Source: Heliopora coerulea
Lineage: Eukaryota > Cnidaria > Anthozoa > Scleralcyonacea > Helioporidae
Length of the DNA stretch: 64,000 bases
Reading direction: 5' to 3'
NCBI GenBank assembly: GCA_030142905.1
Contig: JASJOG010000139.1
Location: 702,501 to 766,500, forward strand
A program made the translations under genes and the position numbers. Positions 8,028-26,236 of the stretch are shown piece by piece. Under the pieces are notes generated by a model. That model saw nothing but the letters and a program-made list of their open reading frames with translations, made no database searches and was not told the origin of the DNA. The first letter of the stretch is position 1; each line of letters starts with the position of its first letter.

Positions 8028-8333
8028 AGTAGTCTATAAAGTGGGGATTCTAGCACATTTTATGAATTTTTTAATGAGCTTTCAAAAATTGTATCAACTT
8101 CCAGTGATTGGTGATGACGTCATAAAAGTGATTAACAAATGTCAATCATTTTCATAACCTGTCAAATCTGCTTCATCGAGACGAAGGCTCTCAACGCTTG
8201 GAGCTTCGCTGCTGAGTCCGAAGGACGATCGCGGACCGAAGGTGTAACCTGATTCTCAAATTTACCTAAATTTCTCACATTCTCAAAATTAATCAAATTG
8301 GTAAATTTTATCACATTCTCAAAATTAATCATT
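8028..8333 (+). repeat. Left terminal inverted repeat
   Basis: 306 bp, starting AGTAGTCTATAAAGTGGGG. It differs from the right TIR at six positions. In order inward it contains: a 10-bp palindrome ATGACGTCAT (8114-8123), a GC-rich run of mini-hairpins (about 8178-8243; perfect ones at 8216-8226 and 8235-8243), and two copies of a CACATTCTCAAAATTAATCA-type repeat, with a third, diverged copy just beyond the TIR end. The ends are the expected integrase and terminal-protein substrates. The 61-codon frame across it is not considered a gene. Confidence 0.93.
8114..8123. promoter_or_regulatory. CRE-like palindrome in left TIR
   Basis: ATGACGTCAT contains the full TGACGTCA site bound by CREB/ATF-type bZIP factors in animals. 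The same decamer is in the right TIR at 26141-26150. A role in transcription of the element is inferred only. Confidence 0.4.
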
Positions 8334-8361
8334 TTTCGCGTTCTCAAAATTAATAAATTTT

Positions 8362-11300
8362 TTATGGTTTGAATCCAAATATTTTTTCATATTCTTCAAC
8401 CATATCATTCATGTAATGACCAAATGCAAGTGTATCTATTTTGTTTTCAAGTATTTTTTGTTTGTCATCTTTATATGACAAAGCAATCTTTTCAACACTT
8501 TCTGTATACAACTCATGGTTTCTGTGTCTTATTAAATTCATTTTTCTAACTTGTTCTTTTTCATTGAATAAGCAATCTTTGTAATTTTGGAATGTTATTT
8601 CTTTTTTAATTACATTTTTCTTAACACCTTTACATTTTTTTCCTTCTTTTTCACCATCTTCACCGTTTCCACACATTTTGTAAGCATATAATTTTGCTCT
8701 CAAACCAACAAATTCTTCAATTTGTTTTCCACCACACTCATCTTTCATCATTCCAATAACCTTTTTGTTTAATCCAGTTTTTATTCCACTTTTATGTTCT
8801 TTTGAATAATTACTTGTATCAAACATTTTTTCTACATCTGGTGAAATATTTTTATAAAAATCATCAGTTTTAATTTCATACATTAAACTATCAGTGTCGG
8901 TAAATAATAATGACGCGGCTTCGCCGTATTTTTTCTTAATATAATTATAATAAAAATCGTACATTAAAGTTTTACTAAGGTCCAATATACTCATTCCCAA
9001 ATATATTGGTTTATCTAGTTTAATTTTTGTTTTATACATATGAACAGCAATTAGATTTTCAGAAAATATTGTTCTTTTGTTAAAATTACTTTTTGAAAAT
9101 AATTTTAATGCTTTTTCTTTTCTATTTACTAATTGAATATTAACCCTGTTTCTTACATTTTCCATAGTTTTTCCAAATACAGAATTGTTCATTAATTTGA
9201 AGAAATCTTTTTCAAAATCATTTTTTGCATTTGTTCTCAAATTTGTGTTCAAATCAATATATTGTTTCATAAAATCTTCTTCATAAAATTTTACTCCTTT
9301 ATGAATTTTTGTACAACGAAGTCCCAACTTTTCATACAATTTTAAGTTTTCACAATGTAAAACATATTTTTCTTTGTTATTTAAATTTGGAATTAATTTT
9401 TCAACTTGGTTAACCTTTAATCTTTCTGGTGCAAGAGGGTACTCATTGTGTAAATCATGTAAATCTTCTGGATATTCTAAATCAACTTCCAAAATGCAAC
9501 TAACGGAACGTTTATCTCCGATGTTTCTCCAATTTTCTAACTCATTTTTATTCATCCATTTGAAATCTCTAACAGGTAATTTTTTACTCATTGCCCATCC
9601 ATATAAATTATTTGCATCCAAATATGGAATATAAATACTATCTTCTTCAGAATTATATTTTCCCCCCATATATTTATTGTTTGCTTTTGCATGTCTTTTT
9701 ACAATAATTGAAATTCCTCCTCTTATACCATTTTCAACCATTAGATACATTTGTGGGTCTGATAAGAATTCCAATTCTACTTTTGGAAATTTTAACATTG
9801 CATCCCATGCAAGACCAGGTGAAGTAAAATACCAAGCTGGATCTAAATTATAATTTTCTTTACATACTTTTCTAAAATTCTCAAAAACGTCAGCTAATAA
9901 AACTACGTCGGTTTTCAAATACAAATCATGGTACTCTCTCATATTTTTAATATTGAATTTTTCCCAAACATTTTGTGCATGCTGGTAGTCTTCTTCACTT
10001 ATACTTTCATCATTTAAACTAGAATAAAATTTTTCAATATCAGGAAGTTTTTCTTCTTTTAATTTTTCAATGCTGTCAAACCATTCATATGGAAAAACAC
10101 CTTTTCTAGTTAATAATTCTCTTTGTTCTTCATTTTTAAAAAATTTTTTCAAAATATTCATTTCATTTTTATCTAAATTATTAACTAAATTTGCTAAACT
10201 AGTTTGCATAAATTTAAAGCTATCAATAAATCTAAGTTGTTTTTTAATATTAATTTTTTCTTTAATAATATACATTTTTTCTTTGGTTGAATCATCAATA
10301 AATTCACTAATAATATTTATATCTTTTTTCATTGATTTCAACTGTTTTTCAGTTAATATTTGTTCTTTAAAAAAACTATCAACAATAAAATCTTTTGAAA
10401 AACTAATATATTTTTCTTCTGTGTTTGGAATAGAATTTATTTCACCTTCTAAAACTCCAAGATTTTTAATAAACAAATGACTATCATAGTTTTGTAAATT
10501 ATGAAAAATAACAGGGATAAATTTTGGTTTTTTCATTTTTGAATTACATTTTACACAAGCAGCTCCTCTATATTTTCCAGTAAAATGACAATGGTCTCTA
10601 ACTTTTTCAATTTTTTCAAATTTGATTCCACAAGCATAACAATTTTCTGCTGTTCTAAAATCTACTTTATCTTTTTCACTTAATATTATCTTTTTTTGAA
10701 ATTTAAATTGCTCATGTATTTTTTTAATATTATTTTCTAAACTATCTACAAATTTTAATGAAATATCATCGCTTACGCCGTCTCCACCATCTTCACCAGG
10801 TTTTTTACTACATTTTACTAATTTTGGACTAAATAACTTATCGTCAAAACATTTTATCAAGTAACTATACCCAGATGGTTCGTGTTTTTGAAATCGGGTG
10901 GTACACCCGCTGCTGGATTTTGTTTTATCTCCTTCAGATTCACTTATATTTTTAAGGTTGCATTCAAAATCTGCATAAATCACAAATGGAACATCATGCA
11001 TTTTATCATAATTTTTAAATTTTAATTTTTCTCCTTTATCTGGATAAACAGTTTTTCCACATTCATATTTCATACAATATTCTAAATGGTTTTTATAAAT
11101 ATTTTCTTTACTAAAGTGTTGTAAACAATTATTACAAAGATGTATTTTTTCTTTATGCTTACTAGTCTGACTTGATAACAACCTACTCATATTTTTAATT
11201 AAACAATAATGCTTGTTAATTTGTTCCTCATTTTCTTTATTTTCTTCAGTTATCAATAAAATATTTGTATGAGATTCTGGGTTTTTTAACTTACTTACTC

Positions 11301-12501
11301 TTAAAGTGAAAAGTTCATGATCTTTTTCTTCATTGTATCCTAATAAATTAATTGCAATATTATTATTTTTTTCAAATTTATCAATATCAGAAAATCCACA
11401 TGGAAATTTCACATCTTTAACATTAAAATTCTCAGCTTTCTTTTTCAAAATTTTTGTAATTCTTCCAGGATTTTTTAAGTTAGGATTAGTTTTTAAAAGT
11501 TCACTTATTACAACACACCACAATAAACACTTTTGATCATCATTTTCTGGATTGATAATTGCTTTTTTATTTTTTAAAAACTCTGGAGTGGGAATATAAG
11601 ATGATGCAAGTAATCGTTTAATTTCATTAATATTTAGAATTACTTTCAAACCTTTGTGAAATTTCCACAAACTCGAATTTTTTAAAAATTCTTCAAAACT
11701 CAAAATAATTTTTTGTGTCATTTTTTCATATATTTCATCAAAATTACTTCCATCAAAAATTTCTTCATAATAACTATGAAAATGAGCATTATCCACAGTT
11801 TGTTCTCCTGTTGCTGGATTTGTTTTTGACATCAAACACACAAGAGTTATTTGTTGTTTTGTGCTTGGATATTTTTTGAATTTTTTAATTACCAATGGTT
11901 TTATTTTTTTCAAGAGAGTCAAAGGATCATATAAAGACAATTTAAATTTTTTCAAATCCATTAGATATCTTTTTGTTACATTCAAAGCTTCTTTATCCAA
12001 TACAAATTTTGCAGTTGGAGTTGTAACTTTACTTTGTATTTTTTCAAATATATCTGAAAAATTATTTTTTAATTTATTATACCAATTTTTTATTCTTTCT
12101 GTTCCTTTGTTATTTAATGGGTTGTATTTATCAAATAAATTAAGTATTTCTTCTTTAGATTTATCTAACAAATTATTTGCTTTTTTCCTTGATTTTTCAA
12201 CAAAATTATTTTTTGGTCTTAAAGGTGCTTGTAAATTTTCTTCTGTAATTGGTTTGTCTAAAATTGATGAAGAAATTTCTTGATCTTTTCTTGGTCTTCC
12301 AGGACCTCTAATAGTAATTTTTTCAGTTTTTGGAGGATATGTTGATGGTCTTCCAACACGATTTGCAGGTCCATAAACAGGACCATCAGTATTTCTTGTT
12401 ATTGGTCTTCCAACACGATTTGCAGGTCCATAAACAGGACCATCAGTATTTCTTGTTCTTGGTCTTCCAGGACCACGTCTTGAACTTTGATCAATGTTCA
12501 T
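8362..12501 (-). CDS. Protein-primed DNA polymerase B (pPolB)
   Basis: The replicase of the element, copying linear DNA from its termini. The protein is 1379 residues, and all core motifs are visible. Residues 1-75 are basic with GRPR/GRP AT-hook-like cores inside a 19-residue tandem repeat. About 300-480 is the Polinton-type N-terminal region, ending in a C2HC finger (C456, C459, H472, C476). Exo I is D511/E513; a second zinc cluster is C621, C624, H637/H639, C649, C652. Exo II is N671-Y672-D673 and Exo III is Y861/D865. Polymerase motif A is LDANNLYG (D962), motif B NNSVFG (1105-1110) and motif C TDTDS (D1202, D1204). The exonuclease and polymerase aspartates are intact. It is the left-most gene, ending 28 bp from the TIR. 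Its start at 12501 is preceded by an AT-rich leader that is duplicated before the next gene. A terminal-protein domain is not evident, though the long N-terminus could serve. Confidence 0.97.
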   Translation of the reverse strand: MNIDQSSRRGPGRPRTRNTDGPVYGPANRVGRPITRNTDGPVYGPANRVGRPSTYPPKTEKITIRGPGRPRKDQEISSSILDKPITEENLQAPLRPKNNFVEKSRKKANNLLDKSKEEILNLFDKYNPLNNKGTERIKNWYNKLKNNFSDIFEKIQSKVTTPTAKFVLDKEALNVTKRYLMDLKKFKLSLYDPLTLLKKIKPLVIKKFKKYPSTKQQITLVCLMSKTNPATGEQTVDNAHFHSYYEEIFDGSNFDEIYEKMTQKIILSFEEFLKNSSLWKFHKGLKVILNINEIKRLLASSYIPTPEFLKNKKAIINPENDDQKCLLWCVVISELLKTNPNLKNPGRITKILKKKAENFNVKDVKFPCGFSDIDKFEKNNNIAINLLGYNEEKDHELFTLRVSKLKNPESHTNILLITEENKENEEQINKHYCLIKNMSRLLSSQTSKHKEKIHLCNNCLQHFSKENIYKNHLEYCMKYECGKTVYPDKGEKLKFKNYDKMHDVPFVIYADFECNLKNISESEGDKTKSSSGCTTRFQKHEPSGYSYLIKCFDDKLFSPKLVKCSKKPGEDGGDGVSDDISLKFVDSLENNIKKIHEQFKFQKKIILSEKDKVDFRTAENCYACGIKFEKIEKVRDHCHFTGKYRGAACVKCNSKMKKPKFIPVIFHNLQNYDSHLFIKNLGVLEGEINSIPNTEEKYISFSKDFIVDSFFKEQILTEKQLKSMKKDINIISEFIDDSTKEKMYIIKEKINIKKQLRFIDSFKFMQTSLANLVNNLDKNEMNILKKFFKNEEQRELLTRKGVFPYEWFDSIEKLKEEKLPDIEKFYSSLNDESISEEDYQHAQNVWEKFNIKNMREYHDLYLKTDVVLLADVFENFRKVCKENYNLDPAWYFTSPGLAWDAMLKFPKVELEFLSDPQMYLMVENGIRGGISIIVKRHAKANNKYMGGKYNSEEDSIYIPYLDANNLYGWAMSKKLPVRDFKWMNKNELENWRNIGDKRSVSCILEVDLEYPEDLHDLHNEYPLAPERLKVNQVEKLIPNLNNKEKYVLHCENLKLYEKLGLRCTKIHKGVKFYEEDFMKQYIDLNTNLRTNAKNDFEKDFFKLMNNSVFGKTMENVRNRVNIQLVNRKEKALKLFSKSNFNKRTIFSENLIAVHMYKTKIKLDKPIYLGMSILDLSKTLMYDFYYNYIKKKYGEAASLLFTDTDSLMYEIKTDDFYKNISPDVEKMFDTSNYSKEHKSGIKTGLNKKVIGMMKDECGGKQIEEFVGLRAKLYAYKMCGNGEDGEKEGKKCKGVKKNVIKKEITFQNYKDCLFNEKEQVRKMNLIRHRNHELYTESVEKIALSYKDDKQKILENKIDTLAFGHYMNDMVEEYEKIFGFKP
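12347..12470 (-). repeat. 57-bp tandem repeat in polymerase N-terminus
   Basis: The unit GGTCTTCCA... recurs at 12347, 12404 and 12461, a spacing of 57 bp (19 codons). Two full copies and one partial copy encode GRP-centred basic repeats with TRNTDGPVYGPANRV linkers. Copies are nearly identical in DNA, so the expansion is recent. Confidence 0.85.
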
Positions 12502-12556
12502 CTTTTATTTATATATTTATTTTTCTTAAAGAAAAAAAATTTTTATTAATGAAAAA
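12502..12556 (-). promoter_or_regulatory. AT-rich leader of polymerase gene (duplicated)
   Basis: This leader is nearly identical to 12967-13024, the leader of the next minus-strand gene. It contains ATAAATATATAAATAAAAG just upstream of the start codon and a TTTTTCTTAAAGAAAAA palindrome. A shared promoter is the likely explanation; it is inferred from the duplication alone. Confidence 0.5.
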
Positions 12557-12563
12557 ATTTTAA

Positions 12564-12595
12564 AAAAATAAAAATCAAATTTGATTTTTATTTTT
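12564..12595. terminator. 16-bp perfect palindrome at gene 3' end
   Basis: Arms 12564-12579 and 12580-12595 are perfectly complementary with no loop. The palindrome overlaps the stop codon (12594-12596) of the minus-strand gene above it and lies before the polymerase leader. Hairpins mark mRNA 3' ends in some giant viruses; that role here is an analogy. Confidence 0.45.
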
Positions 12596-12965
12596 AACAC
12601 GATAGGTCGATTTGATAAATTTTTTTTAATATAAAGATATTAATTAATGAACATACTTGTTTTAAACTTGGTATTAAAGTAATTTTGTAAGTTGTAGTAT
12701 AAATTTTTTTGTTCGTGTTATGATCAATTTCAAAATCATTGAAAATACAAAATTTTTCTTTATAATTTATATAAAATTCATGATGTGGTAATAATTCCCC
12801 ATCACCTGAAATTTTAGCAATTTTTTCAGAAAAAACATAAAATAAATAGTCTTCATCATCATAAAAGCTGAAATCTTTCAGATTATTATCCTCATATATA
12901 AATTTTTCAATAATCTTCCGACCTCTAAGCAGTTTGTTTGATTGCGTTTCGCTAACAGAATTCAT
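12594..12965 (-). CDS. Polinton protein of unknown function, 123 aa
   Basis: I do not recognise the family. I start it at M 12965 (MNSVSETQSNK). An upstream ATG at 13040 would add 25 residues, but that part is translated from the leader duplicated in front of the polymerase gene, so it is more likely promoter. The product is acidic in the middle (FSFYDDEDYLF) and hydrophobic at the end (SLINIFILKKIYQIDL). There is no clear signal peptide or catalytic motif. It sits between the polymerase and the SAP-like gene, all on the minus strand. Confidence 0.6.
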   Translation of the reverse strand: MNSVSETQSNKLLRGRKIIEKFIYEDNNLKDFSFYDDEDYLFYVFSEKIAKISGDGELLPHHEFYINYKEKFCIFNDFEIDHNTNKKIYTTTYKITLIPSLKQVCSLINIFILKKIYQIDLSC

Positions 12966-12966
12966 A

Positions 12967-13024
12967 CTTTTATTTATATATTTATTTTTTCTTAAAGAAA
13001 AAAAATTTTTATTAATGAAAAAAA
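12967..13024 (-). promoter_or_regulatory. Second copy of the duplicated leader
   Basis: Matches 12502-12556 with a few one-base length differences in homopolymers. It holds the same AT-rich motif just upstream of the start codon at 12965. Confidence 0.5.
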
Positions 13025-13036
13025 ATCTAAGTTTCA

Positions 13037-13390
13037 TCAACCATAAGAAATCAAAAATGATTCGCCAAAAAATCTCAAATCTTTTTTTTTATTAATTAAC
13101 CATACTATACTTCCTGGATTCATATTAAAATTTTTTCCAGCAGAATGAATACTTTTAAATTTTAAAATTTCACCTGTTTTTTTATTTAAAGCTATTATTT
13201 TTACTGGATTTTTTTTATTTGGTACACTAATTTCAAGACCTAGAATTTTTTCAAGTTCATTTTTTTTATATCTTCCATAATATTTTATTTTTTTTTCTTT
13301 TGCAATATTACATAATTGTTTGTATGTTAAATCTTTGTAACCTTTGTAAGCTTCAGAATTTATCATTTCAAAAAAAGTTTTGTTACTCAT
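13037..13390 (-). CDS. SAP-like / NUMOD1-like DNA-binding protein
   Basis: 117 residues. Residues 19-52 (YKDLTYKQLCNIAKEKKI...KNELEKILG) have the helix-extended-helix look of a SAP or Rho-N module. Residues about 62-102 (VKIIALNKKTGEILKFKS, then SAGKNFNM and SIVWLINKKK) resemble the NUMOD1 repeat, a DNA-binding module that accompanies GIY-YIG and HNH homing nucleases. No nuclease domain follows: the protein ends 15 residues later. It is probably a small DNA-binding protein, perhaps the stranded DNA-recognition part of a former homing nuclease. The start context is AAATAAATG. Assignment is from visible pattern only. Confidence 0.6.
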   Translation of the reverse strand: MSNKTFFEMINSEAYKGYKDLTYKQLCNIAKEKKIKYYGRYKKNELEKILGLEISVPNKKNPVKIIALNKKTGEILKFKSIHSAGKNFNMNPGSIVWLINKKKDLRFFGESFLISYG

Positions 13391-13426
13391 TTATTTATGA
13401 AAAAAATTTTTTTTAAATGAATTTTT

Positions 13427-13858
13427 TTAAATAAACTTATAAACTAAATATCCTCCCGAAATTCCAACCAAGAAAAAAGCAACATTTTTATACTCTTTCA
13501 TTTCATCCGAAGGTTCATAATAATCTTCTAATTTTGGTGGACCCCGGTCATTTTCCTTATTTTCTTCTTCTTTTAAATATTTATAACGATTATTAATTTG
13601 AGCAAGATATTTCAAAGACATGTTTGTTTTATTTATATCAGCATTTACATCAGATAATTGTTGTCTTAATTTTTCAATTTCTTGTTTTCTTTTTACTTGG
13701 TCTTCATACCATTTTTCTTTCGCTTCACTCAATTTTTCCATTGCTTCATTATGTTTTTTTATTTCTTTTTCATATCCAGAATGATTTAATTTTGAAAATA
13801 CAAATCCAGCACCTGCAAAAGCAACTGCATTAAATAATCCACCAACTACTGTTTCCAT
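13427..13858 (-). CDS. Coiled-coil protein with hydrophobic ends, 143 aa
   Basis: Residues 4-22 are hydrophobic and glycine-rich (GGLFNAVAFAGAGFVF). About 30-100 is a long charged coiled coil, with a conserved-looking EDYYEPSDEMKEY patch (about 111-123). 125-143 is a C-terminal membrane segment (VAFFLVGISGGYLVYKFI). Proteins of this build recur in invertebrate Polintons, but their job is not established. A membrane-linked virion or assembly role is inferred. It is next to two further small membrane proteins with the same start context (AAATAAATG). Confidence 0.7.
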   Translation of the reverse strand: METVVGGLFNAVAFAGAGFVFSKLNHSGYEKEIKKHNEAMEKLSEAKEKWYEDQVKRKQEIEKLRQQLSDVNADINKTNMSLKYLAQINNRYKYLKEEENKENDRGPPKLEDYYEPSDEMKEYKNVAFFLVGISGGYLVYKFI

Positions 13859-13891
13859 TTATTTTTATAAATATTTTATATTTTATGACAT

Positions 13892-14125
13892 TCATGACTT
13901 GAAAGGATCAGAAGGAATCCATTTTTTATCTTGCGCATATTTAACTGCAAGTGATGATAATCCAACAGCTGCTGCAAGTTTTAAAGTTGGAACTAAACTA
14001 GATGGTGTTGATAAACCATCACTAATTACTTTTCTTGTTATCATTCCAACTCCAACAGCACCCAATGTAATTATTGTAGAATCATATAATTCATTCATAA
14101 CTTCTTTTCTATTCATTTCACCCAT
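13892..14125 (-). CDS. Small two-helix membrane protein, 77 aa
   Basis: Two hydrophobic stretches at about 17-29 (TIITLGAVGVGMI) and 46-62 (TLKLAAAVGLSSLAVKY), short basic linkers, and a C-terminal WIPSDPFK motif. It is a conserved-looking Polinton accessory protein with no known biochemical function. The ATAAATAAATG start context and tight packing between its neighbours support a real gene. An overlapping plus-strand frame is its shadow. Confidence 0.7.
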   Translation of the reverse strand: MGEMNRKEVMNELYDSTIITLGAVGVGMITRKVISDGLSTPSSLVPTLKLAAAVGLSSLAVKYAQDKKWIPSDPFKS

Positions 14126-14157
14126 TTATTTATAAAAAAATTTTTTTTTCTTGTCAC

Positions 14158-14661: not shown

Positions 14662-15121
14662 TTATTTTTAATTTTATTTTTTTATTTATTTTTTATTCAA
14701 AGTTATTTAAAAGTTATTTATAAATAAAACTAAATAAAAGTTAAATAAAACCTAAGTAAATTTTAAATAAAACAAACAGCAAAGCTGCGTGCAAGCGGTT
14801 ATTCAAAGTTATTTAAAATTTATTCAAACGTTATTTAAAATTTATTCAAATAAAAGTTAAATAAAACCTAAGTAAATTTTAAATAAAACAAACAGCAAAG
14901 CTGCACGCAAGCGGTTATTCAAAGTTATTTAAAATTTATTCAAACATTATTTAAAATTTATTCAAACGTTATTTAAAATTTATTCAAATAAAAGTTAAAT
15001 AAAACCTAAGTAAATTTTAAATAAACACAAACCTTCCAAATATTATTTAAAATTTATTCAAAACAACCAAAGGTGCAAGCTGAGCACAAGCGTTATTCAA
15101 AATTTATTTAGTTATATAGTT
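14662..15121. repeat. AT-rich intergenic tandem repeats
   Basis: No gene is seen. A block containing AAGTTAAATAAAACCTAAG recurs three times at spacings of 116 and 138 bp. The difference is one extra 22-bp TTATTTAAAATTTATTCAAA-type subunit. Two copies carry the GC-rich hairpin CAGC-AAA-GCTG (14777-14787 and 14893-14903). Confidence 0.75.
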
Positions 15122-15647: not shown

Positions 15648-16702
15648 TCAATTTATTAATATTTTTTTAATATCAACACCATATTTTTTACAAAGAAGAT
15701 AATGGTTTAAAACAATTTCTGGATATTTCATTTTTCTTGTTGAAACATATACATATAATATTTCTCCATCCATTTTTCCGTAGTCTTTATTTTTTGATCC
15801 AAGATAAATTTTCATATTTGAAGTGTGATACTTTCTAGCATTTGTATTGAAAGAAAGAATTTCTTTTCCATTTACATAAAGATTTCCTTTTTTAACACCG
15901 CTGAGGTTACCTTGATCCCAATGAACAGAAAGACATATCAATTTATTTATTTGAGTTGCATTTGCTTTCAATTGCCATGCGTTATTTGAAACTGTAGACG
16001 GGTATGAATTTGTGATATCTAATGATGAATTACTATAAGAAACACCAAAATCAGAAAGAGTTGGTTGACTTGTTGTTTCATTATCTGTGATTTTAAACAA
16101 CGACACCTCATTGCTAGATGAATTTAATGATTTTAAACCATATACAAAGTAAAAATTCAAGTATTGATAACTTAAAATATTTTCTTCACAAATTAAATGT
16201 AAATTTTTGCTGTTGTTTGTATTTGGTCCAAGGTATTGAACACAATAAAAATTATTATTAATTGATGATTTTTTAAAAAATGGTTGTTTGTTTGTATCAT
16301 CTTGTTTGAATATCCAATCTTTTTTTCTTGACAAATTCAAAAGTTTTTAACCTTTTTATCGTTTCCAGTGTTACCGGTGTTACCGGTGTATTCAATATAA
16401 TTAACATCATCTTTCACATCAAAAATTCCTTCATCATCCATTTGTAAATTATAAATATTTGCAACCGTATTTGGTGTCACATCATTTCTCACTCTGTCGT
16501 CGACGTATTTTTTATTTACAGAATGTTGATTGGAAGATGGGTTATAATTTGCTGCATGAAGAATATTATGATTTCCCATATCCAAATCTCCAGTCATTGT
16601 TCCACCTGTTTTTGATAATTTTTTATCAAATTCATTTAAAATGAAATTTTTTTCACTTTGTGTTTTTGAACTAAAATCATCATCATTAAATATAACGCTC
16701 AT
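15648..16702 (-). pseudogene. Tail-fibre-like lectin gene, frameshifted
   Basis: Two abutting minus-strand frames read as one protein of about 350 residues. The first (16337-16702, start context ATAAATAAATG) carries the phage-fibre repeat LSKTGGTMTGDLDMGNHNI followed by NKKYVD. The second (15648-16340, no ATG) carries a concanavalin/LamG-like domain with LICLSVHWDQ, LYVNGKE and a C-terminal HYLLCKKYGVD. The 16776-17999 gene has the same order in one frame, so I read a -1 frameshift near 16337-16345. No classic slippery heptamer is seen at the joint, so mutation is more likely than recoding. The likely role is a receptor-binding fibre of the virion; that is inferred from domain type only. Confidence 0.7.
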
Positions 16703-18765: not shown

Positions 18766-20397
18766 TTACAATATATATTTTGCAATTAAAACTCCTCCAA
18801 CTATTGCAAAAGATAAAATCCATAAATTTTCAATGCGCGAACCGGTTGAAGACCCAATGGGTGATTTTGGAGTGATTTTTGAATCGACCGAAGCTGCAAG
18901 ACCTGAAGTATTTGTTTCATTTTTGTTGTCATTTTTGTTGTCTTTTTTATTTATTTCATTTTTCTTCACTCGCTCCGCGTCGTTTCCCTGTATCGGACTT
19001 CGTCCGCCGCTCCGCGGTTTTGTTCCGCAAAGCGGTGAGAGCTCCGCTCGATCGTTTTCAATTCCGTAATAATTTAATTTTTTGTTAACTCCAAAAACCA
19101 TATTTTCATCAGAAACTTTTAATTTGTTATTATATCCTTCAATAGGATTTTTTAAAATAATTAAACTGCTTGGAATCAACCATAAAGTTGGACTTATAGC
19201 TGTATTTAAAACTACATTTGTTGATGAAATTGCCTGATTCATATTATTTATCCATGTTGAAGTGTCATAATTTATAATTGAATCTTCAAAAATTTGTCTA
19301 AATACTTTTTGTGTTTCCAATGCTGAAGCTCTATTTGAAACAATACTTTGTCTTGTTCTAGCTTGAGCCCCGAGGATTGAATAAAGATATACTTCAATGG
19401 ATTGATTTAATAATTCAGTTCCATTTTTTGTTAAACCGTTTGACAATCTTGGAACAAATTTTTTGTAATCATTTTGAGTATCTCTAATTTGACCTGGACC
19501 GTGTTGATATCTTTTCCATGGGTCTGTGCCAACGGTGTCTTGACCTAAATGTTCTCCTTTCAGGTTCATAATTTCTTGATAAGTCCATTTTGGATAATGA
19601 TCTTTTAAAAAACCAGCATTAAATTTATAAAATGTTTCATTATCACCACCAGCTCCGCTGCCTTTCAGGTTCAATTGGTGCATAATTTTTCTTGTTGTAA
19701 AATAAACATGAAATCTCATAAATGATGTAATTTGTTTTGGAACGTTAGCTGAAAATAATAAATGTTGAATTGAAATTCCACATCCATAAGTTGCAATCCA
19801 TGTTCCAATTATGCTTTGAAAATATGATTCATTAAGTGACCATTTTGCATTATCATTTGTAGTTATGTTTAATCCAGGAAAATTGCTTTGAAAATAATCT
19901 GTATTGCTTACATAAATACTAAATTGATTAATTGGATAACTTAAAACATATTGTGTAGGAAATTCATCCCAATAATAATTTTTTCCTGTATAACCAACAT
20001 GTCTTTTTCCTCTTGGTAATTCTTGTACAGTTCCTCCAAGTTTCCAAATTTTTGGAAAGTGACCGTCGTTGACGCGGTCCGCTTCGCGACCGATTGGTTT
20101 GTTTATTGTTAAATACTTTGTCATATTTGGATCATTTTTAAAAGTGTCTGAATTTATGTCTGTTGAAATATCGAGCCCCTGGCTCGCCGCTCCGCGGTTT
20201 TTGAAATATGTTATTGTTTTTTCCCAACTTCCATCTTTATTAATATCATGCTCGAAGTAAAATTTTGACATGTCTGCATATGGATATTTTTTCAAAAAAC
20301 TTTCTTTAAATTTTTTATCCAAAATTTTTCTTTCATTCACTACAAAATCATAATTTTTTCCATAATATTTTTTCTCAGCTTTTTCAAGTGAATTCAT
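18766..20397 (-). CDS. Large Polinton protein with C-terminal membrane anchor
   Basis: 543 residues, intact; I cannot name the family. Residues 1-70 are charged. About 130-420 is a folded-looking region rich in aromatic and polar residues (DEFPTQYVLSYPINQFSIYVSN, SFMRFHVYFTTRKIM). About 445-520 is a low-complexity linker, and 525-543 is a membrane span (WILSFAIVGGVLIAKYIL). The linker part 455-475 is encoded by a cluster of four GC-rich mini-hairpins (18994-19049). Further hairpin-derived insertions lie near NRGAASQG and GREADRVNDG. It is divergent from the integrase with a 21-bp gap. A structural or membrane-associated virion role is inferred from position. Confidence 0.75.
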   Translation of the reverse strand: MNSLEKAEKKYYGKNYDFVVNERKILDKKFKESFLKKYPYADMSKFYFEHDINKDGSWEKTITYFKNRGAASQGLDISTDINSDTFKNDPNMTKYLTINKPIGREADRVNDGHFPKIWKLGGTVQELPRGKRHVGYTGKNYYWDEFPTQYVLSYPINQFSIYVSNTDYFQSNFPGLNITTNDNAKWSLNESYFQSIIGTWIATYGCGISIQHLLFSANVPKQITSFMRFHVYFTTRKIMHQLNLKGSGAGGDNETFYKFNAGFLKDHYPKWTYQEIMNLKGEHLGQDTVGTDPWKRYQHGPGQIRDTQNDYKKFVPRLSNGLTKNGTELLNQSIEVYLYSILGAQARTRQSIVSNRASALETQKVFRQIFEDSIINYDTSTWINNMNQAISSTNVVLNTAISPTLWLIPSSLIILKNPIEGYNNKLKVSDENMVFGVNKKLNYYGIENDRAELSPLCGTKPRSGGRSPIQGNDAERVKKNEINKKDNKNDNKNETNTSGLAASVDSKITPKSPIGSSTGSRIENLWILSFAIVGGVLIAKYIL

Positions 20398-20418
20398 TAT
20401 TTATTTTAATAAAAATAA
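20398..20418. promoter_or_regulatory. 21-bp bidirectional start region
   Basis: This spacer separates the start codons of the 543-aa gene (minus) and the integrase (plus). It consists only of A and T and is nearly palindromic, so each gene reads AATAAAT just before or near its ATG. The leaders must be extremely short or overlap the other gene. Confidence 0.6.
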
Positions 20419-21627
20419 ATGAACGACAAAGTGAGTGATAATGACGACACCAAAGGTGTCGCGAACATGTCTACCGACATGTTTGTTATTGAGCAAGAGT
20501 TAAGAGACATTTATTACAACTCAGAAACAGGTTATCAATCTACAGAAAGACTTTATCAAAAAGCAAAAGAAAGACTTCCAAAGGGATTAAATGTTAGTAG
20601 AAAAATTGTACAAGACTGGTTAAAAATGCAAGATACTTTTACAAGATTTAAACCAATTGTTAGACGACATAAATTTCAAAAAACATTTGTTAAAGACTTG
20701 GGAGACCAAATACAAATGGATTTAATTGATATGAAAAAATATAAAAAAGATAATGAAGATTATTACTGGATTCTTACTGCTGTTGAAATTTTGAGTCGAT
20801 ATGCGTTTGCTATTCCTGTTTATAGAAAAGATACTTATAACATGACGTTAGCTGTAAGTGAATTACTTAGAAAATTTAAAAAAAGATTTGCTAAATACCC
20901 AAATGTAGCTCAATTTGACGAAGGAAAAGAATTTTATAATGTTGGAGTAAAGTGGTTATTAAAAGATAGTGATGTTAAATATTTTTCTTCAAAATCTGTT
21001 AAAAAAGCAGCTATAGTTGAAAGATTTAATCGAACTTTAAAAACATCCATGTGGAAATATTTTTATGAAAATAAAACTAATAATTGGATCGGCCGCGTCA
21101 GCGGCGATCGCCCGAAGGGCTCTGTTTTAAAAAACCTTGTAAAAAATTATAATAATACTAAACACAAGAGTATATTAATGAAACCTGCTGATGTGAATGA
21201 ATCTAACAAAGACCAAGTGTGGAATACATTATATGGTTCCCCATTAGGAGATTTACCTTTACCTAAATTTAGAATTGGTGATACTGTTAGAATTTCTAAA
21301 TATAAGAATATCTTTAAAAAAGGTTATGAAGCTAATTTTACAGAAGAAATTTTTAAAATTGTAAAAGTATTTAGAGGTGACCCAAACATGTATGAAGTGG
21401 AAGACCTTGAAGGAGAACCAATTATTGGAAAATTTTATGAACAGGAATTTTCAGCTGTATCTGCTGTTAATAAAAATAACTTGAGTGGTCTGTATAAAGT
21501 AGAGAAAATATTAAAAAGAAAAAAAGTCAAAGGTAAAAATATGGTGTTGGTAAAGTGGGAAGGTTATGATAATAAACATAACTCTTGGATCGAGCAAAGC
21601 GAGATCGAACGAAGTGATCAAGAGTAG
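20419..21627 (+). CDS. Retroviral-type integrase with chromodomain
   Basis: Inserts the linear element into host DNA. 402 residues. The catalytic triad of the rve fold is D101 (QMDLIDM), D167 (QFDEGKEF) and E201 (AAIVERFNRTLK). An SH3-like region with FRIGDTVRI follows at about 284-340. A C-terminal chromodomain (358-396) has YKVEKIL, VKWEGYD and HNSWIEQSEI, suggesting histone-guided targeting. Residues about 225-236 (GRVSGDRPKGS) are encoded by two GC-rich hairpins and look like an extra peptide between NWI and VLKNLVKNYNN. There the rest of the fold is continuous, so activity may or may not be kept. A second ATG at codon 17 is possible. The frame is fully open. Confidence 0.95.
   Translation: MNDKVSDNDDTKGVANMSTDMFVIEQELRDIYYNSETGYQSTERLYQKAKERLPKGLNVSRKIVQDWLKMQDTFTRFKPIVRRHKFQKTFVKDLGDQIQMDLIDMKKYKKDNEDYYWILTAVEILSRYAFAIPVYRKDTYNMTLAVSELLRKFKKRFAKYPNVAQFDEGKEFYNVGVKWLLKDSDVKYFSSKSVKKAAIVERFNRTLKTSMWKYFYENKTNNWIGRVSGDRPKGSVLKNLVKNYNNTKHKSILMKPADVNESNKDQVWNTLYGSPLGDLPLPKFRIGDTVRISKYKNIFKKGYEANFTEEIFKIVKVFRGDPNMYEVEDLEGEPIIGKFYEQEFSAVSAVNKNNLSGLYKVEKILKRKKVKGKNMVLVKWEGYDNKHNSWIEQSEIERSDQE
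21088..21123 (+). repeat. GC-rich double hairpin inside integrase
   Basis: GCCGC-GTCA-GCGGC (21092-21105) and GCCC-GAA-GGGC (21110-21120) lie back to back in an otherwise AT-rich gene. They add an in-frame peptide without a stop. Confidence 0.75.
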
Positions 21628-21664
21628 AAGAAAATATTCAAAATGTATAAAATGTATAAAATAA

Positions 21665-22831
21665 ATGGATAATAACGGTTTTGATGATATAGAATTAAAT
21701 GATAGAAATATAAGACACCGCGAGGCTGAAGAACACCGTGAGTACGGTGAAACAAGTGGAGGAAATTTTGCTGATACAAATTTAGATACTGGAGAAACAA
21801 CTTTACTACCCCCAGACCAAAACACCAGAGTAACTAGAGTTAAAGACCCTGAGTCTGAAAATTTATTTAAAAAATTCAAAAAAAATTTGGGAGGAATTAA
21901 AAGATCAGTAACTAGTGATAGAAAAAATACTTTCAAAGATATATTTGATTTCACCCCTGAAAAGGAAAATGGAAAAAATAATGAATTATTGTTAGAACAA
22001 ACTAGGTTTGAAAGAAATAAAAAAGGAAATGTTTCAATTATTTACAAAGAAAAAAGAATTGGCAATGTTGGTGATGACAATAAACTAAAATTATTTGTAA
22101 AATGGAATAAGAATTATGTTAATGAATTCAGAGATATTTTAGAAAAAGCAAAACAAGAATATAAAAAAACATCAGATTCTATTATAGATAGAAAAATATC
22201 CGATGGAAGCAATGAGGATATTGAAATGACAAATATTGAGAGAAAAAATATAGTTGAAAACACCATTTCACAAATTGATAATGACGTTAATAGAATAATT
22301 GATGAAAATAACTTGAACAAATTAGTTAAAGATGAAAATGATCCAAGAAGATCATTATTTGATTCAGATGAATTGAGAGAATTTAGAGGTTTATTAAATT
22401 TTGAAGAAGCTGTCTCTCCGGTTGGTGGTATTGATTATTTGGATTTATCAGAAAATGAAAGAAAAAATGTTTTACGTGAAAAAATTAGATCATTTGATAG
22501 AGAATATGAATATTGGAAAAATAAAGCTGATTTAGAAACAGCTGAACCTCAAAAAAGTATATATAAAAGTTTTTCAGAAATTGCAAAATTATATGCAGAT
22601 AGAACGAGACTTGAAAATGATGAAAAACCAATCAGTGAAGAAGGAATAAATATTCTAAATGAAAATGCTGAAAAATCTGACCTTGGAAGATTAGAAAGAT
22701 TTAAAAAATGGGCAAAAGAAAATCTCGCAGGTTTATCAGCAGTAGCAATTTCTGTAGCAGGTATAATTACAGTAATAGTTATGGGAGCAAGAAACGCATT
22801 AAAAAAGGTGCAAGTGCAGTTGGAAAATTAG
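21665..22831 (+). CDS. Large Polinton protein, 0-frame part
   Basis: 388 residues in the first frame. Residues 1-60 are acidic and polar. About 75-345 is charged and largely helical, with an EYEYWKNKADLE segment. 346-374 holds a membrane span (NLAGLSAVAISVAGIITVIVMGA). After GARNALKK the frame ends within seven codons. The frame one base back continues at once with a second amphipathic and membrane segment (22807-23046). An A AAA AAG heptamer (22801-22807) stands exactly at the joint. I recognise the joined order (membrane span, ARxAxKKGA, second hydrophobic part) from invertebrate Polinton proteins, so the two parts are one gene. Function unknown; membrane-bound. The start context is AAATAAATG. 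Confidence 0.75.
   Translation: MDNNGFDDIELNDRNIRHREAEEHREYGETSGGNFADTNLDTGETTLLPPDQNTRVTRVKDPESENLFKKFKKNLGGIKRSVTSDRKNTFKDIFDFTPEKENGKNNELLLEQTRFERNKKGNVSIIYKEKRIGNVGDDNKLKLFVKWNKNYVNEFRDILEKAKQEYKKTSDSIIDRKISDGSNEDIEMTNIERKNIVENTISQIDNDVNRIIDENNLNKLVKDENDPRRSLFDSDELREFRGLLNFEEAVSPVGGIDYLDLSENERKNVLREKIRSFDREYEYWKNKADLETAEPQKSIYKSFSEIAKLYADRTRLENDEKPISEEGINILNENAEKSDLGRLERFKKWAKENLAGLSAVAISVAGIITVIVMGARNALKKVQVQLEN
22801..22807 (+). promoter_or_regulatory. Possible -1 ribosomal frameshift heptamer
   Basis: A AAA AAG in the correct phase (codons TTA AAA AAG). A -1 slip here continues into the 22807-23046 frame with no missing residue. The same heptamer works in bacterial dnaX. Loss of one A from a run of seven is the simple alternative. 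Confidence 0.5.
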
Positions 22832-23046
22832 CAAAAGCAATTGCAAATATAGGTAAAAATTTTGGTACTGTCATTTCAGCAGTTTTAAATTTAATTTCTC
22901 AAATATTATCATGGGGAGCAAAAGGTATTGCTTTTTTAGCTAAAAATTTATGGATATTAGTTATTGCAATTACTTACTTTTTATACAATGAATACAAAGA
23001 CAGAAAAAGATCGACCGAAGGTCTCAGCAGCAAAGCTGCAAAATAA
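22807..23046 (+). CDS. C-terminal part of the 21665 protein, -1 frame
   Basis: 79 codons continuing the previous protein after the frameshift. It opens GASAVGKLAKAIANIGK, then has a hydrophobic stretch (VISAVLNLISQIL), then a membrane span (NLWILVIAITYFLY), then a basic tail. The open frame extends upstream to 22708, but that part is antiphase to the real gene. The final residues RSTEGLSSKAAK come from two GC-rich hairpins (23013-23023 and 23027-23039). It has no start codon of its own at a sensible place. Expression needs frameshifting, or the gene is broken. Confidence 0.65.
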   Translation, partial: GASAVGKLAKAIANIGKNFGTVISAVLNLISQILSWGAKGIAFLAKNLWILVIAITYFLYNEYKDRKRSTEGLSSKAAK

Positions 23047-23080
23047 AAAATTTTTTTTATATTTTTATATATAATAAAAA

Positions 23081-24319
23081 ATGAATAGAGAAAACAAATT
23101 ATATCCAGGATATAAAAGATCAAAAATGAGTGATATTAAAGGAACCAGAACAAGACATGTTGTAACTTTAAATCCAAATTCAGTAAATCCAGAAGAAGAC
23201 CTTTATATAGATATCCCAAAATTAAACCCTAATTTGTGTCTTGTACCTGATTCATTAAGATTGTTATTTAATTTTAAAAATTCAAATACTAAATCATGGT
23301 TTTTAAATAATTTATCAAAATTGTTAAAGAAAAGACTAGTCGCTAAATTTGCTGGTGAAATTGTTTATGATAATAGTGGAGAATCTATTTTGGAAATTTA
23401 CAAAGATCTTTGGAAAACTAAATCCGAAAGAGCAGATATGGTTGAATATGGGTTAGCAAGTGAAAATTTGAGAAAATTAATTTCAAAAGATGACTCTGGA
23501 GCAACAAGTGGAAATACCGAAAAAGTTTCTGATAAGTTAATGTTTGACATTTATGGAACAAAACAATGTTTAAAACTGGAAAAAATTCTTGTAGACCATG
23601 GATTATATGCTCCGTATGGTATGATTAATAATTTTCAATATATTTTAACTTTCCCAAAAGCAAGTGAAATTATGGTAGCACAAAGTGGTGAAAGTGTTGC
23701 AGGATACAAATTAGAAAATTTAGAATTGGAATATGAAACAATTGAAAACCAGGATTTAGCAAATGATATTTTAACAAATTACTCAACAGGAAGGTCATTG
23801 TCATATAATTATGTGACTTTGATGAAAACAGTAGAATGGGATAAAAACGCGACTTTACATAATGAAACTATAAATATACCACGTAAGAGCATGAAAGCAG
23901 TTGTATTGTTATTTAGAAATAAAACTGTTACAAATAGTGAGCAATTTGTTTATCCAAATATAACGGATGTCAAAATTAGTGTTGAGGGGGTTCCAAATAG
24001 TGTTTATTCCCAAGGATTTCCCAAACGTAGATTTTTTGAAGAAGCTAAAAGAATATTTCGATGCAATTATTTTGACTGTGACGCAGTTATGGATATTGAA
24101 AAATTCTACAAAGACTCTTTCGCATTATGTATTGATTTAAGAACATTAGACGACAATTTTGTTTATGGAACTGGAAAAAAATTGGTAAACACACAATCTG
24201 GATTATTGCTAGAAATTAAAAAGACTGCTACTACAGCAAATGTAATGTGTTATGTATTTGTAATAAGTGATGGATTGCTAAATATTGTTAATAAAGATTT
24301 GTCTTCAATCCAATTTTAA
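23081..24319 (+). CDS. Major capsid protein, double jelly-roll (F54H12.2-like)
   Basis: 412 residues, intact. It belongs to the widespread invertebrate family often labelled F54H12.2-like, which is the Polinton major capsid protein. Visible signatures: VTLNPNSVNPEEDLYIDIPK (29-48), CLVPDSLRLLF, SWFLNNLSKLL, KFAGEIVYDN, DKLMFDIYGTKQ, the EYETI strand, SLSYNYVTLMKT, and GVPNSVYSQGFPK near residue 305. It would form the hexon-like trimers of the capsid. A second ATG at codon 16 (MSDIKGTRTRH) is an alternative start that matches the conserved part better. It is followed 16 bp later by the packaging ATPase, a typical morphogenesis pair. Confidence 0.88.
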   Translation: MNRENKLYPGYKRSKMSDIKGTRTRHVVTLNPNSVNPEEDLYIDIPKLNPNLCLVPDSLRLLFNFKNSNTKSWFLNNLSKLLKKRLVAKFAGEIVYDNSGESILEIYKDLWKTKSERADMVEYGLASENLRKLISKDDSGATSGNTEKVSDKLMFDIYGTKQCLKLEKILVDHGLYAPYGMINNFQYILTFPKASEIMVAQSGESVAGYKLENLELEYETIENQDLANDILTNYSTGRSLSYNYVTLMKTVEWDKNATLHNETINIPRKSMKAVVLLFRNKTVTNSEQFVYPNITDVKISVEGVPNSVYSQGFPKRRFFEEAKRIFRCNYFDCDAVMDIEKFYKDSFALCIDLRTLDDNFVYGTGKKLVNTQSGLLLEIKKTATTANVMCYVFVISDGLLNIVNKDLSSIQF

Positions 24320-24335
24320 AAAACAAAAATAAAAA

Positions 24336-24947
24336 ATGAAAAACGAAGTTAAACCATTTAATATGTTAATTGTTGGAATGACTGCTTGTGGAAAAACAAA
24401 ATATCTTTTAGATTTTATAGAAAATGAATATAAAAATTATTTTGATTATATTTTTCTAATTTGTCCAACGTTTAAATGGAATAAAACTTATGAAAATTGG
24501 AAATATGATAAAGATGAAGACTTTATTGCTATTCCTTGTGACCAAGACAACGTTGAAGATTGGTTAAAATTTATAGTAAATTTTTCAAAAGGAAGTAAAA
24601 GCTTAATAATATTGGATGATTGTGCAAGTGGAAAAGATGTAAAAAATAGAACAGGTGAATTGGTTAAATTAGCATTTAGCGCAAGACACTATAATCTTTC
24701 CGTTGTTGTTATCACACAACAACTCACATCAATTACAAAACCATTTAGAGAAAATATTTCAAAATTGGTTGTATTTTATAATCCAAATAAAAAATATATG
24801 ACAGAAATAATTAAAGAATATTCAGGAGAGGATGACAAAAATGAAATTGAAAAAATTTTAAAAACTTTGAAAACAAAAAAATATTCATCTTTGGAAATAA
24901 ATTTAATTTTTCCATTTGGTTATAAAATAAATGAACGAGAATCGTGA
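24336..24947 (+). CDS. DNA packaging ATPase, FtsK/A32 type
   Basis: 203 residues. Walker A is GMTACGKTKY (14-23), Walker B is SLIILDDCA (about 88-96), and a downstream VVVITQQL element (about 126-133) fits sensor/arginine-side positions in the A32-like clade. The length is normal for Polintons, which carry a compact ATPase. It pumps the element's DNA into capsids. The stop overlaps the start of the next gene by 17 bp. All core residues are present. Confidence 0.93.
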   Translation: MKNEVKPFNMLIVGMTACGKTKYLLDFIENEYKNYFDYIFLICPTFKWNKTYENWKYDKDEDFIAIPCDQDNVEDWLKFIVNFSKGSKSLIILDDCASGKDVKNRTGELVKLAFSARHYNLSVVVITQQLTSITKPFRENISKLVVFYNPNKKYMTEIIKEYSGEDDKNEIEKILKTLKTKKYSSLEINLIFPFGYKINERES

Positions 24948-25509
24948 AACGTTGCAACATATAGAAATTCCGCAAATGGACAGTCCACCATCAAATGCAT
25001 CCGCTGGTGCTCAAGATAAACAAACGCAACCCGAAGGGCAGCAAGCTGGTGAAAGCAGATGCGAAGCACTGCGTGATGATAAAAAAGACGTGATGAAAAA
25101 ACGTGAAGAATTGATAAGGTTATCTGAAGATGGAGAAATTTCTCAATCAGTACAAAATTTGAAAAAAGCAAGTGATAAAGTTATATTAAAAATTTATTCT
25201 GAATATGAAATTAAACAAGCAGAAAAAGCAAATGTATTTTTAACAGATTTACTAATTAGTAAATTTGCAGATTTATTGGGTGGTTTAGAAGCAATTGAAA
25301 GTAGTGAAGAATTAGAAAAAGAATTGACGAGAGATAAATTACTAAAAAGAGATGTAAAATCTGTGGTTGAAAAATTATCCCCATATCTACCATATCTTGG
25401 AATATTATCTGGTGGTATTACGGTTGGAAAACATGTTATTAAAAAACAAAATAAAAAACTAACTGAATGTGAACGAAGTGAACCTTCAACAAGCGACACA
25501 AGTCAGTAA
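24931..25509 (+). CDS. Conserved Polinton protein, 192 aa
   Basis: The N-terminal 55 residues are variable. About 25 of them (QPEGQQAGESRCEALRDD) are encoded by GC-rich hairpins, including a 22-nt block also present in a fibre gene. The conserved part is helical: SDKVILKIYSEYE, KANVFLTDLLISKFADLL, DKLLKRDVKSVVEKLSPY, then a hydrophobic glycine stretch (LGILSGGITVGKHV, about 155-168). Similar proteins follow the ATPase in other invertebrate Polintons. Function unknown. The start (ATAAAATAAATG) lies inside the ATPase gene. Confidence 0.7.
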   Translation: MNENRETLQHIEIPQMDSPPSNASAGAQDKQTQPEGQQAGESRCEALRDDKKDVMKKREELIRLSEDGEISQSVQNLKKASDKVILKIYSEYEIKQAEKANVFLTDLLISKFADLLGGLEAIESSEELEKELTRDKLLKRDVKSVVEKLSPYLPYLGILSGGITVGKHVIKKQNKKLTECERSEPSTSDTSQ

Positions 25510-25510
25510 A

Positions 25511-25543
25511 TAATTTTATAATATAAATTTTATTATAAAATTA
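25511..25543. terminator. Perfect 13-bp hairpin between convergent genes
   Basis: TAATTTTATAATA (25511-25523) pairs perfectly with 25531-25543 around a 7-nt loop. It starts one base after the stop of the plus-strand gene and lies 25 bp from the stop of the minus-strand gene. A bidirectional 3'-end signal is the natural reading; it is inferred from placement. Confidence 0.5.
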
Positions 25544-25568
25544 CAAAATTATACAAAATTATACCAGT

Positions 25569-25922
25569 TTATTTATCTTCATTTTTAGGTTTTACATTTT
25601 GATCATTTTTTAAATTAATTAATGAAGCAATTATTTTATCTTTTTCTGTGTCATTTTTATTTTCATTTTCAAAAGATTTTAATAATTTTAAATGATTATT
25701 ATTATCTGAATAATAAACCTCTTCAACGGAATTGCTTCCAAAATTTGTGCCAGTTTCAAAATCTTTTACTCCAATGTCAACATGTGCACCAATTCTAAAT
25801 CCTTTCTTTTTAACTTTTCTATAATTTATTGGAGTATATTTATCTGTGTTGATACCATTATGGTTATCTGTTTCATTTTTAATATTAGTTTCAATTTTTG
25901 TTTTTGAAATGCAAGTACCCAT
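25569..25922 (-). CDS. Putative N-myristoylated protein, 117 aa
   Basis: It begins MGTCISKTK: glycine 2, a small residue at 6 and basic residues behind fit N-myristoylation, and cysteine 4 fits palmitoylation. The rest is hydrophilic, Asn/Lys-rich, with one compact patch (KGFRIGAHVDIGVKDFETG, about 40-58). No transmembrane helix is seen. It may anchor to membranes in the infected or host cell, or in a virion; that is inferred. It is the only gene starting next to a TIR: its ATAAATAAATG leader touches the right TIR at 25931, so the TIR probably supplies the promoter. Family not recognised. Confidence 0.65.
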   Translation of the reverse strand: MGTCISKTKIETNIKNETDNHNGINTDKYTPINYRKVKKKGFRIGAHVDIGVKDFETGTNFGSNSVEEVYYSDNNNHLKLLKSFENENKNDTEKDKIIASLINLKNDQNVKPKNEDK

Positions 25923-25930
25923 TTATTTAT

Positions 25931-26236
25931 AATGATTAATTTTGAGAATGTGATAAAATTTACCAATTTGATTAATTTTGAGAATGTGAGAAATTTAGGT
26001 AAATTTGAGAATCAGGTTACACCTTCGTTCCGCGATCGTCCTTCGGACACAGCAGCGTAGCTGCAAGCGTTGAGAGCCTTCGGCTCGATGAAGCAGATTT
26101 GACAGGTTATGAAAATGATTGACATTTGTTAATCACTTTTATGACGTCATCACCAATCACTGGAAGTTGATACAATTTTTGAAAGCTCATTAAAAAATTC
26201 ATAAAATGTGCTAGAATCCCCACTTTATAAACTACT
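25931..26236 (-). repeat. Right terminal inverted repeat
   Basis: 306 bp, reverse complement of 8028-8333 with six differences. Five of those lie in the GC-rich hairpin part. Perfect hairpins here are 26038-26048, 26052-26064 and 26074-26086. The ATGACGTCAT palindrome is at 26141-26150. Confidence 0.93.

Follow-up and report, generated by a model that had tools for sequence, protein, structure and literature searches.

Short hairpin units that appear to move within a Polinton family of Heliopora coerulea

The 64,000-nt stretch of Heliopora coerulea DNA considered here (assembly GCA_030142905.1, contig JASJOG010000139.1, positions 702,501-766,500 of the forward strand; hereafter the window) contains an 18.2-kb copy of a Polinton, a virus-like transposon, at 8028-26236, and this copy is interspersed with short hairpins that differ from one copy of the family to the next. 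We consider it probable, at roughly 0.7, that these hairpins are non-coding mobile units of extremely small size, which form families, live as parasites on this Polinton family and move as folded single-stranded DNA during its replication. What is established is that insertion is precise, that the main unit has an exact length and a preference for S|A targets (G or C followed by A), that stems change by compensation, that insertions in genes are filtered for frame, that units nest, and that they lie inside Polintons at 18 of the 18 places sampled. The assembly, 430 Mb in 769 contigs, holds many copies of this Polinton family.

Hairpin excess and variation among copies

A preliminary description of the window had listed 26 short stems in the element, 25 of which are indeed perfect, the one at 20075-20092 being bulged as was said there, and comparison with shuffled sequence shows that such stems are overrepresented, with a clear excess that peaks at 3-nt loops. 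When 3-nt loops are counted whose stems are 3 bp or longer and contain 3 or more G/C, the window element has 32 hairpins as against 3.0 +/- 1.5 in shuffled sequence (20 shuffles, 200-bp blocks); hairpins with 4-nt loops number 5 versus 2.9, and those with 5-nt loops 19 versus 3.6, the latter surplus being mostly 3-nt-loop hairpins read one pair shorter. In a larger set of 163,722 bp, made up of the window element together with 19 stretches from other copies (a further retrieved stretch, L021, is without the element), innermost 3-nt loops with GC stems number 173 versus 12.4 +/- 2.6 (5 shuffles in blocks of 100 bp), loops of other sizes (0-2 and 4-10 nt) occur at 0.6 to 2.6 times the chance level, and 43,445 bp of flanking DNA hold no excess of 3-nt loops (9 versus 17.6 shuffled). 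Of the 173 hairpins, 147 are closed by a C-G pair, and the commonest loops are GAA/TTC (67), AAA/TTT (41), GTA/TAC (16) and GGA/TCC (15).

The hairpins are furthermore hardly ever found at the same site in two copies. Merged into 16 sites, 14 of which are comparable (sites 16756 and 17034 being without a comparable copy), the listed hairpins of the window are identical in only 1 of 156 copy comparisons, the anchors of this test having missed L026, a copy that has 18994-19017 in common with the window. At site 8916 none of 7 copies is shorter and at site 21734 only 2 of 17 are, and with so little or no length difference among copies these two hairpins are not established as insertions and may be something else. 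An empty counterpart exists for 98 of 211 hairpin clusters, and 39 filled and empty pairs differ by one clean gap, which in 8 cases is exactly 30 bp long, further 30-bp pairs being present among the 98. Among the clean gaps, 30 of the 31 in coding DNA and all 8 elsewhere have a length divisible by 3, where it should be mentioned that the open reading frame (ORF) limit was 120 residues and that some of the latter fall in smaller ORFs, for instance 25569-25922. Alignments of genes from 17-19 copies likewise yielded 75 minority insertions of at least 6 bp, of which 63 are multiples of 3 and 35 have a 3-nt-loop hairpin, many of those without a hairpin being acidic or simple repeats; the capsid gene had none of this size among 19 copies.

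The main host gene of the hairpins in the window copy encodes a 543-residue protein (18766-20397, reverse strand), for whose predicted model structure comparison returned no confident match. Two hairpins in this ORF at 20172-20197 (reverse strand) lie at a site that is shorter in 21 of 21 copies compared, a cluster at 20064-20092 (reverse strand) at one that is shorter in 16 of 18, and at 19650-19668 (reverse strand) there is an 18-bp hairpin insertion, CAGC.TCC.GCTG plus a tail, of which an identical short unit is found elsewhere in L023; all three correspond to gaps in 11 of 11 aligned proteins of relatives. The variable C-terminal part of the same ORF has a cluster of five hairpins at 18971-19049 (reverse strand), two of them common to L026, and the hairpin-encoded peptides fall in stretches of the predicted model with low confidence (residues 70-72, 104-113, 247-249 and 393-535). 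On the forward strand, a 30-bp in-frame hairpin insertion occupies 21091-21120 of the integrase gene, where 5 of 18 copies have insertions that differ from it, a 15-bp hairpin insertion lies at 25060-25074 in a 192-residue ORF, and the region 14777-14903 contains two CAGC.AAA.GCTG hairpins, one in each copy of a 116-bp tandem repeat, which are absent from 6 of 6 copies compared.

The 30-bp unit, its target and its reading frame

The main unit is exactly 30 bp long and has the form ATC-[4-bp stem, 3-nt loop]-TCA-[5-bp stem, 3-nt loop], with small departures in some instances. An intact example, ATC-GACC.GAA.GGTC-TCA-GCAGC.AAA.GCTGC, is found at 23010-23039 (forward strand) in the spacer before the capsid gene, at a site that is empty in L012, and it folds as drawn with -6.3 kcal/mol (z -2.5); the decayed left-end unit described below does not adopt this fold, and the 75-nt terminal block folds no better than shuffles in the window copy. 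A pattern with the linkers and stem ends fixed and five pairs left free has 48 instances, 30 of them distinct, in the family loci examined, and in the distinct units the five pairs are Watson-Crick in 29, 28, 27, 30 and 30 of 30, the expectation with partners dealt anew being 10.8, 12.4, 11.9, 26.3 and 13.1. In this set 98.1% of the cells are paired, two-sided changes number 55 versus 17.4 +/- 2.8 after shuffling, a value reached in 0 of 500 shuffles, and the covariation score is 0.527 versus 0.010-0.078 for slid partners. The whole genome has 298 + 323 = 621 matches to the pattern and 0 + 0 to its reversed control, and in 100 genome units among the matches listed the free pairs are complementary in 99, 95, 90, 94 and 94 of 100, the loops being GNA in 96 and ANA in 91 cases, together 187 of 200. 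GNA triloops are said, in work of Hirao (1994) and Yoshizawa (1997), to form very stable DNA mini-hairpins, and the earlier remark that d(GCGAAGC) is an exceptionally stable mini-hairpin fits both these loops and the predominant C-G closing pair. Composition, codon usage or chance can be ruled out as the source of the hairpins, and we give them next to no probability, in view of the 173 versus 12 hairpins with a peak at loop size 3, the empty sites in sister copies with matching gaps in the proteins of relatives, and the 621 matches versus none for the reversed control.

The units are also found at unrelated positions. One 18-mer from the unit turns up at 6 distinct places in a total of 8 sequences, and a second unit type, 24 bp long, lies at three sites, where both orientations are represented. 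Hairpins of 9 bp, for example CGCAAAGCG in L017, are cleanly inserted as well, with flanks that are equal at 32 of 32 bases on each side. Within the left terminal inverted repeat (TIR) of the window copy, a decayed outer unit on the forward strand (8175-8199 and 8230-8234, the block thus spanning 8175-8234) holds in its second loop an inner 30-bp unit running in the opposite direction (8200-8229, reverse strand), the second hairpin of which is decayed, and the right TIR has the corresponding nested block at 26030-26089 (reverse strand; inner unit 26035-26064). The outer unit, ATC-GAGCC.GAA.GGCTC-TCA-CCGC.TTC.GCGG, stands un-nested in L020 and, in a form that differs by a single base, in L017, the block as a whole recurs at three other positions in L031, L032 and L033/L034, and the inner double hairpin recurs in L035-L038; since L031 and L032 carry the pair, the nested pair must have been copied as a composite. 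Two suggestions of the preliminary description thereby part ways: the first, a family of nano-repeats that spread inside the element, is upheld by the clean filled and empty pairs, the same unit at unrelated positions, both orientations and nesting, and the second, in which selection for replication, packaging or nucleosome exclusion would maintain the hairpins, finds no support, since copies so rarely have sites in common. Functional signals for termination, packaging, replication or chromatin, held by selection at useful places, would be in keeping with the presence of hairpins in spacers and TIRs too and with transcript-terminating hairpins in relatives of Mimivirus, as the available part of the literature has it, but positions vary among copies, many hairpins lie within genes, and the TIR block is missing from all 7 other left TIRs compared, even though towards the right end L010 and L016 each carry units of their own. 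Such signals, if fixed in place, are largely refuted by presence and absence and must be regarded as very improbable. Old insertions reshuffled by homologous recombination, with no present mobility, are hardly more credible; the family is large and similar enough, and some insertions are indeed common to 2-5 copies at one site, but recombination cannot place the same unit at non-homologous sites or flip it.

The target of the main unit can be read from both filled and empty sites. Among 43 distinct sites, selected by requiring only two hairpins and TCA and not fully independent of one another, A, T and C stand at positions -3 to -1 in 43, 43 and 41, G or C stands at -4 in 39, and A stands at +1 in 42. 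Of ten empty sites, read by eye from filled and empty alignments, 7 are S|A, two A|A and one T|T, the element-wide frequency of S|A being 0.11 (P about 2e-5); in the S|A events both new junctions are again S|A, and comparison of filled with empty sites revealed no target duplication beyond one ambiguous A.

Double units in genes are oriented 25 sense to 0 antisense, and those in spacers 10:9. Of the 30 distinct units, 29 were tested for stops, and all 29 can be read through on the sense strand whatever the frame; on the antisense strand one frame is always closed by a stop (0 of 29 open), so that the bias in genes, in combination with the balance in spacers, is read mainly as a peptide filter: double units would insert without strand preference, and it would mainly be selection on the peptide that creates one. 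A unit of 10 codons with no stop in its sense frames could in this manner be tolerated in the loops of viral proteins and passed on. The DNA polymerase B (PolB) ORF of other copies also holds units, for instance in L039, with the frame open. When all hairpins are counted, purine loops lean towards the coding strand by 149:42 in genes and 48:27 in spacers, some of these "spacers" being small ORFs. Transcription- or RNA-directed insertion was suggested by this lean and was dropped because of the orientation of the double units inside and outside genes.

A related possibility is an RNA route, in which units are copied from transcripts and returned by reverse splicing, ligation or reverse transcription, as proposed for the hairpin elements of Allomyces in the available excerpts of that literature. 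The lack of a target duplication, an argument made for Allomyces in the same excerpts, is in agreement with this route, as is the presence of a reverse transcriptase ORF in the satellite adjoining the element. We nevertheless find it improbable, since the places sampled included no unit in host DNA, although this is the larger target, since double units have no strand bias outside genes, and since the loops belong to a class reputed to be stable in DNA and are not the usual stable tetraloops of RNA.

Confinement to Polintons, movement and known systems

Every tenth of 100 matches listed, of 122 to one unit variant, was placed, and 10 of 10 such places lie inside this Polinton family, as do all 8 further places retrieved for the TIR block, for which 21 matches were listed; no unit was thus met in host DNA among 18 sampled places. 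Furthermore, the 100 units among the matches listed form 45 clusters, none of which spans more than 17.7 kb, about one element length.

Protein-primed PolB elements replicate through strand displacement, and replication of the Polinton would thus expose long single strands, along which the units may travel in folded form. The main unit inserts precisely, mostly between G or C and A and in either orientation, and we propose that an enzyme acting in trans would cut and join exposed strands at S|A. That the machinery sees the folded strand is suggested by stems that are free in sequence while the fold, linkers and ends are kept, and movement as folded single-stranded DNA is likewise suggested by a fold kept over sequence, by the C(GNA)G and C(ANA)G loops and by the fact that no unit was met in host DNA. 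An S|A enzyme working on single strands would account for the ends, for the lack of a duplication, for insertion in either orientation and for host DNA being spared, and by analogy with REP/TnpAREP it could be of HUH type. Going further, and with somewhat less than even confidence, we propose a 30-nt, structure-defined and codon-neutral parasite of a parasite, whose movement, in the form of a folded single strand, would be limited to Polinton genomes in replication and would rely on a site-specific S|A enzyme, and which would hence be a tracer of extrachromosomal Polinton replication.

The main rival is template switching by the polymerase with no dedicated enzyme, in which the polymerase jumps between displaced strands at short matches and so transfers copies of hairpin stretches to new places, the hairpins being hotspots because the polymerase stalls at them. 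This would require nothing beyond what every Polinton has and would explain the confinement of the units, and it is in agreement with short junction words, such as CACC beside an identical short unit at two sites, and with unit ends that often have one A in common with the target. It does not predict units of exactly 30 bp with fixed ends and an S|A target, nor ends that stay constant while stems change by compensation, and we therefore hold it to be unlikely, though the least so among the alternatives to enzymatic movement of folded strands.

Several observations weigh against the latter reading. Two of the five covariation measures, those taking pairs or types alone, are unexceptional and were reached by 61 and 141 of 500 shuffles. 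Of the ten empty sites, read by eye as they were, 3 are not S|A, and the smaller insertions of 9, 12, 15, 18 and 24 bp are without an S|A rule, so that more than one process may act. The single-strandedness of the moving unit is something we infer, and no HUH-type Pfam match or motif was found in the element ORFs examined, the host genome not having been searched. Furthermore, 70 of the 100 units among the matches listed are more than 20 kb from any family gene place among the matches listed; that just 30 lie near one can be ascribed to those places being part of the candidates (40 of 658, 34 of 1837 and 101 of 1446 scored, covering 1.6% of the genome). Outside this genome, the unit peptide is present in 1 of 360 related proteins from other sources, namely P0121, which carries it in frame and is the sole carrier among those scanned, and three unit patterns (two in viral collections, one in genome contigs) had no match in viral and prokaryotic collections.

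Small hairpin elements in other genomes offer partial parallels. The Rickettsia palindromic elements (RPE) of bacteria are in-frame palindromic insertions of about 100-150 bp in protein genes, and the units described here resemble them in being in frame (30 of 31 multiples of 3) but are, at 30 bp, much shorter. The byps of Magnusiomyces mitochondria are mobile hairpins in coding DNA that the ribosome skips, whereas here lengths are multiples of 3 and frames are open, from which one would expect the units to be translated and not hopped over, as far as sequence alone can tell. The double-hairpin elements (DHE) of Allomyces mitochondrial DNA, reportedly described by Paquin, Laforest and Lang in 2000, are short and GC-rich. 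Like these, the units consist of two adjacent hairpins, are short (30 bp), GC-rich and optional, here among copies in one genome; unlike the mitochondrial DHE, they reside in a virus-like transposon on long nuclear contigs, have a fixed length of 30 bp and a defined target, and are in frame in genes.

The remaining comparisons are drawn from excerpts of the papers cited. The Allomyces elements are there said to be optional among relatives and to be without flanking duplication (PMC2800124, PMC7218506), and sponge mitochondria are said to have repeated hairpins, sometimes double or triple and sometimes in genes without a frameshift, in which stems are conserved and loops vary, whereas here stems change by compensation and the linkers and loop type are conserved (PMC2800124). 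The GC clusters of yeast mitochondria (GC42, for example) are short GC palindromes which spread, fuse with one another and become shuffled, but they are flanked by AG or ACT direct repeats, of which there are none at the unit ends here (PMC4478555). Bacterial REP sequences with RAYT/TnpAREP are palindromes of 20-40 bp with a short conserved tag and many copies, sometimes in ORFs, and they have a GTAG or CGTC tag, lie mostly between genes in bacterial chromosomes and depend on an HUH (Y1) enzyme (PMC3733652), whereas the present units have ATC and TCA as tags and are often in genes, with no HUH enzyme found in the element ORFs. Coding palindromes in the mitochondria of Nematomorpha are inverted repeats of up to 284 bp in protein genes, with arms that encode conserved protein, and unlike the present hairpins they are not presented in the abstract as mobile units (PMC6649704).

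Among openly licensed PMC papers, some of them judged by title, we found no published report of such units in Polintons. We class the units with the mobile hairpin elements; their carrier, a virus-like transposon, is of a kind new for these, and in it they are codon-neutral and keep their fold through stem changes. Mobile hairpins this small were previously known from mitochondria and bacteria, with machinery mostly not established, and with 621 pattern matches and about a hundred empty sites the target choice, unit ends and structural rules become directly readable. That the units seem restricted to Polintons suggests that these elements go through a virus-like stage of replication during which the units move, and the units also illustrate how unrelated 10-residue peptides can enter viral proteins.

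The carrier element and its surroundings

The element was identified as a Polinton from its 306-bp TIRs, PolB, rve integrase, A32 ATPase and the double jelly-roll model of its capsid protein. The left TIR (8028-8333, forward strand) encloses the nested double-hairpin block, and the right TIR (25931-26236, reverse strand) is 98% complementary to it, with 6 mismatches in 306 bp. Five of these six fall in the 56-bp block 8181-8236 and its mirror in the right TIR (P about 0.001), which points either to faster change of hairpin DNA than of the rest or to replacement in one arm. A 6-bp target duplication was looked for at the element ends, where the flanking 6-mers cttgta (8022-8027) and ctagta (26237-26242) are identical at 5 of 6 positions.

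The PolB ORF with an Endonuclease VII domain (8362-12501, reverse strand) had no PolB match in a Pfam search, and its assignment follows from a reading of motifs, among them one which we take to be the DTDS motif. The ORF contains a 57-bp tandem duplication at 12340-12453, and two other contigs of the assembly (G000:C194:250324-250377 and G000:C245:31279-31332) show PolB matches that are interrupted near residue 632 by a gap of 54 nt, which in C194 contains one of the listed units. Integrase and chromodomain are encoded at 20419-21627 on the forward strand (PF00665, E 6.5e-6, below the curated cut-off; PF00385), and an A32-type packaging ATPase is encoded at 24336-24947 on the same strand (PF04665). 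The major capsid protein (23081-24319, forward strand) is a double jelly-roll by its predicted fold (mean pLDDT 67), and this model matches the capsids of iridovirus, PBCV-1 and mavirus in the PDB (best E 3.8e-12). A capsid search of the assembly gave 1446 candidates; all 101 that were scored matched with 92-100% identity, the window copy among them, and the frame, with stops read through, is 412 or 413 residues long in 100 of these and 416 in one, the capsid gene being thus nearly free of insertions. Relatives with a source name are from the corals Paramuricea clavata and Stylophora pistillata, and viral contigs yielded no relative of the ATPase and none from the capsid alignment.

Two smaller reading frames should also be mentioned. 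A 117-residue ORF at 13037-13390 (reverse strand) has a Rho_N-like stretch (E 2.4e-5, just under the cut-off) and a weak NUMOD1 match (E 0.027), and may thus comprise DNA-binding parts of homing-endonuclease type, with no nuclease match. A 230-residue protein encoded at 15648-16340 (reverse strand) has a weak match to concanavalin-like lectins (E 2.4e-4, below cut-off) and is perhaps a virion surface protein. The element sits in a satellite array with repeats of 348 and 379 bp, of which the part at 26240-63998 has about 106 copies of the 348-bp repeat with 379-bp forms interspersed, and the array also contains, at 2617-5109 on the reverse strand, the 830-residue reverse transcriptase ORF (PF00078, 6e-36).

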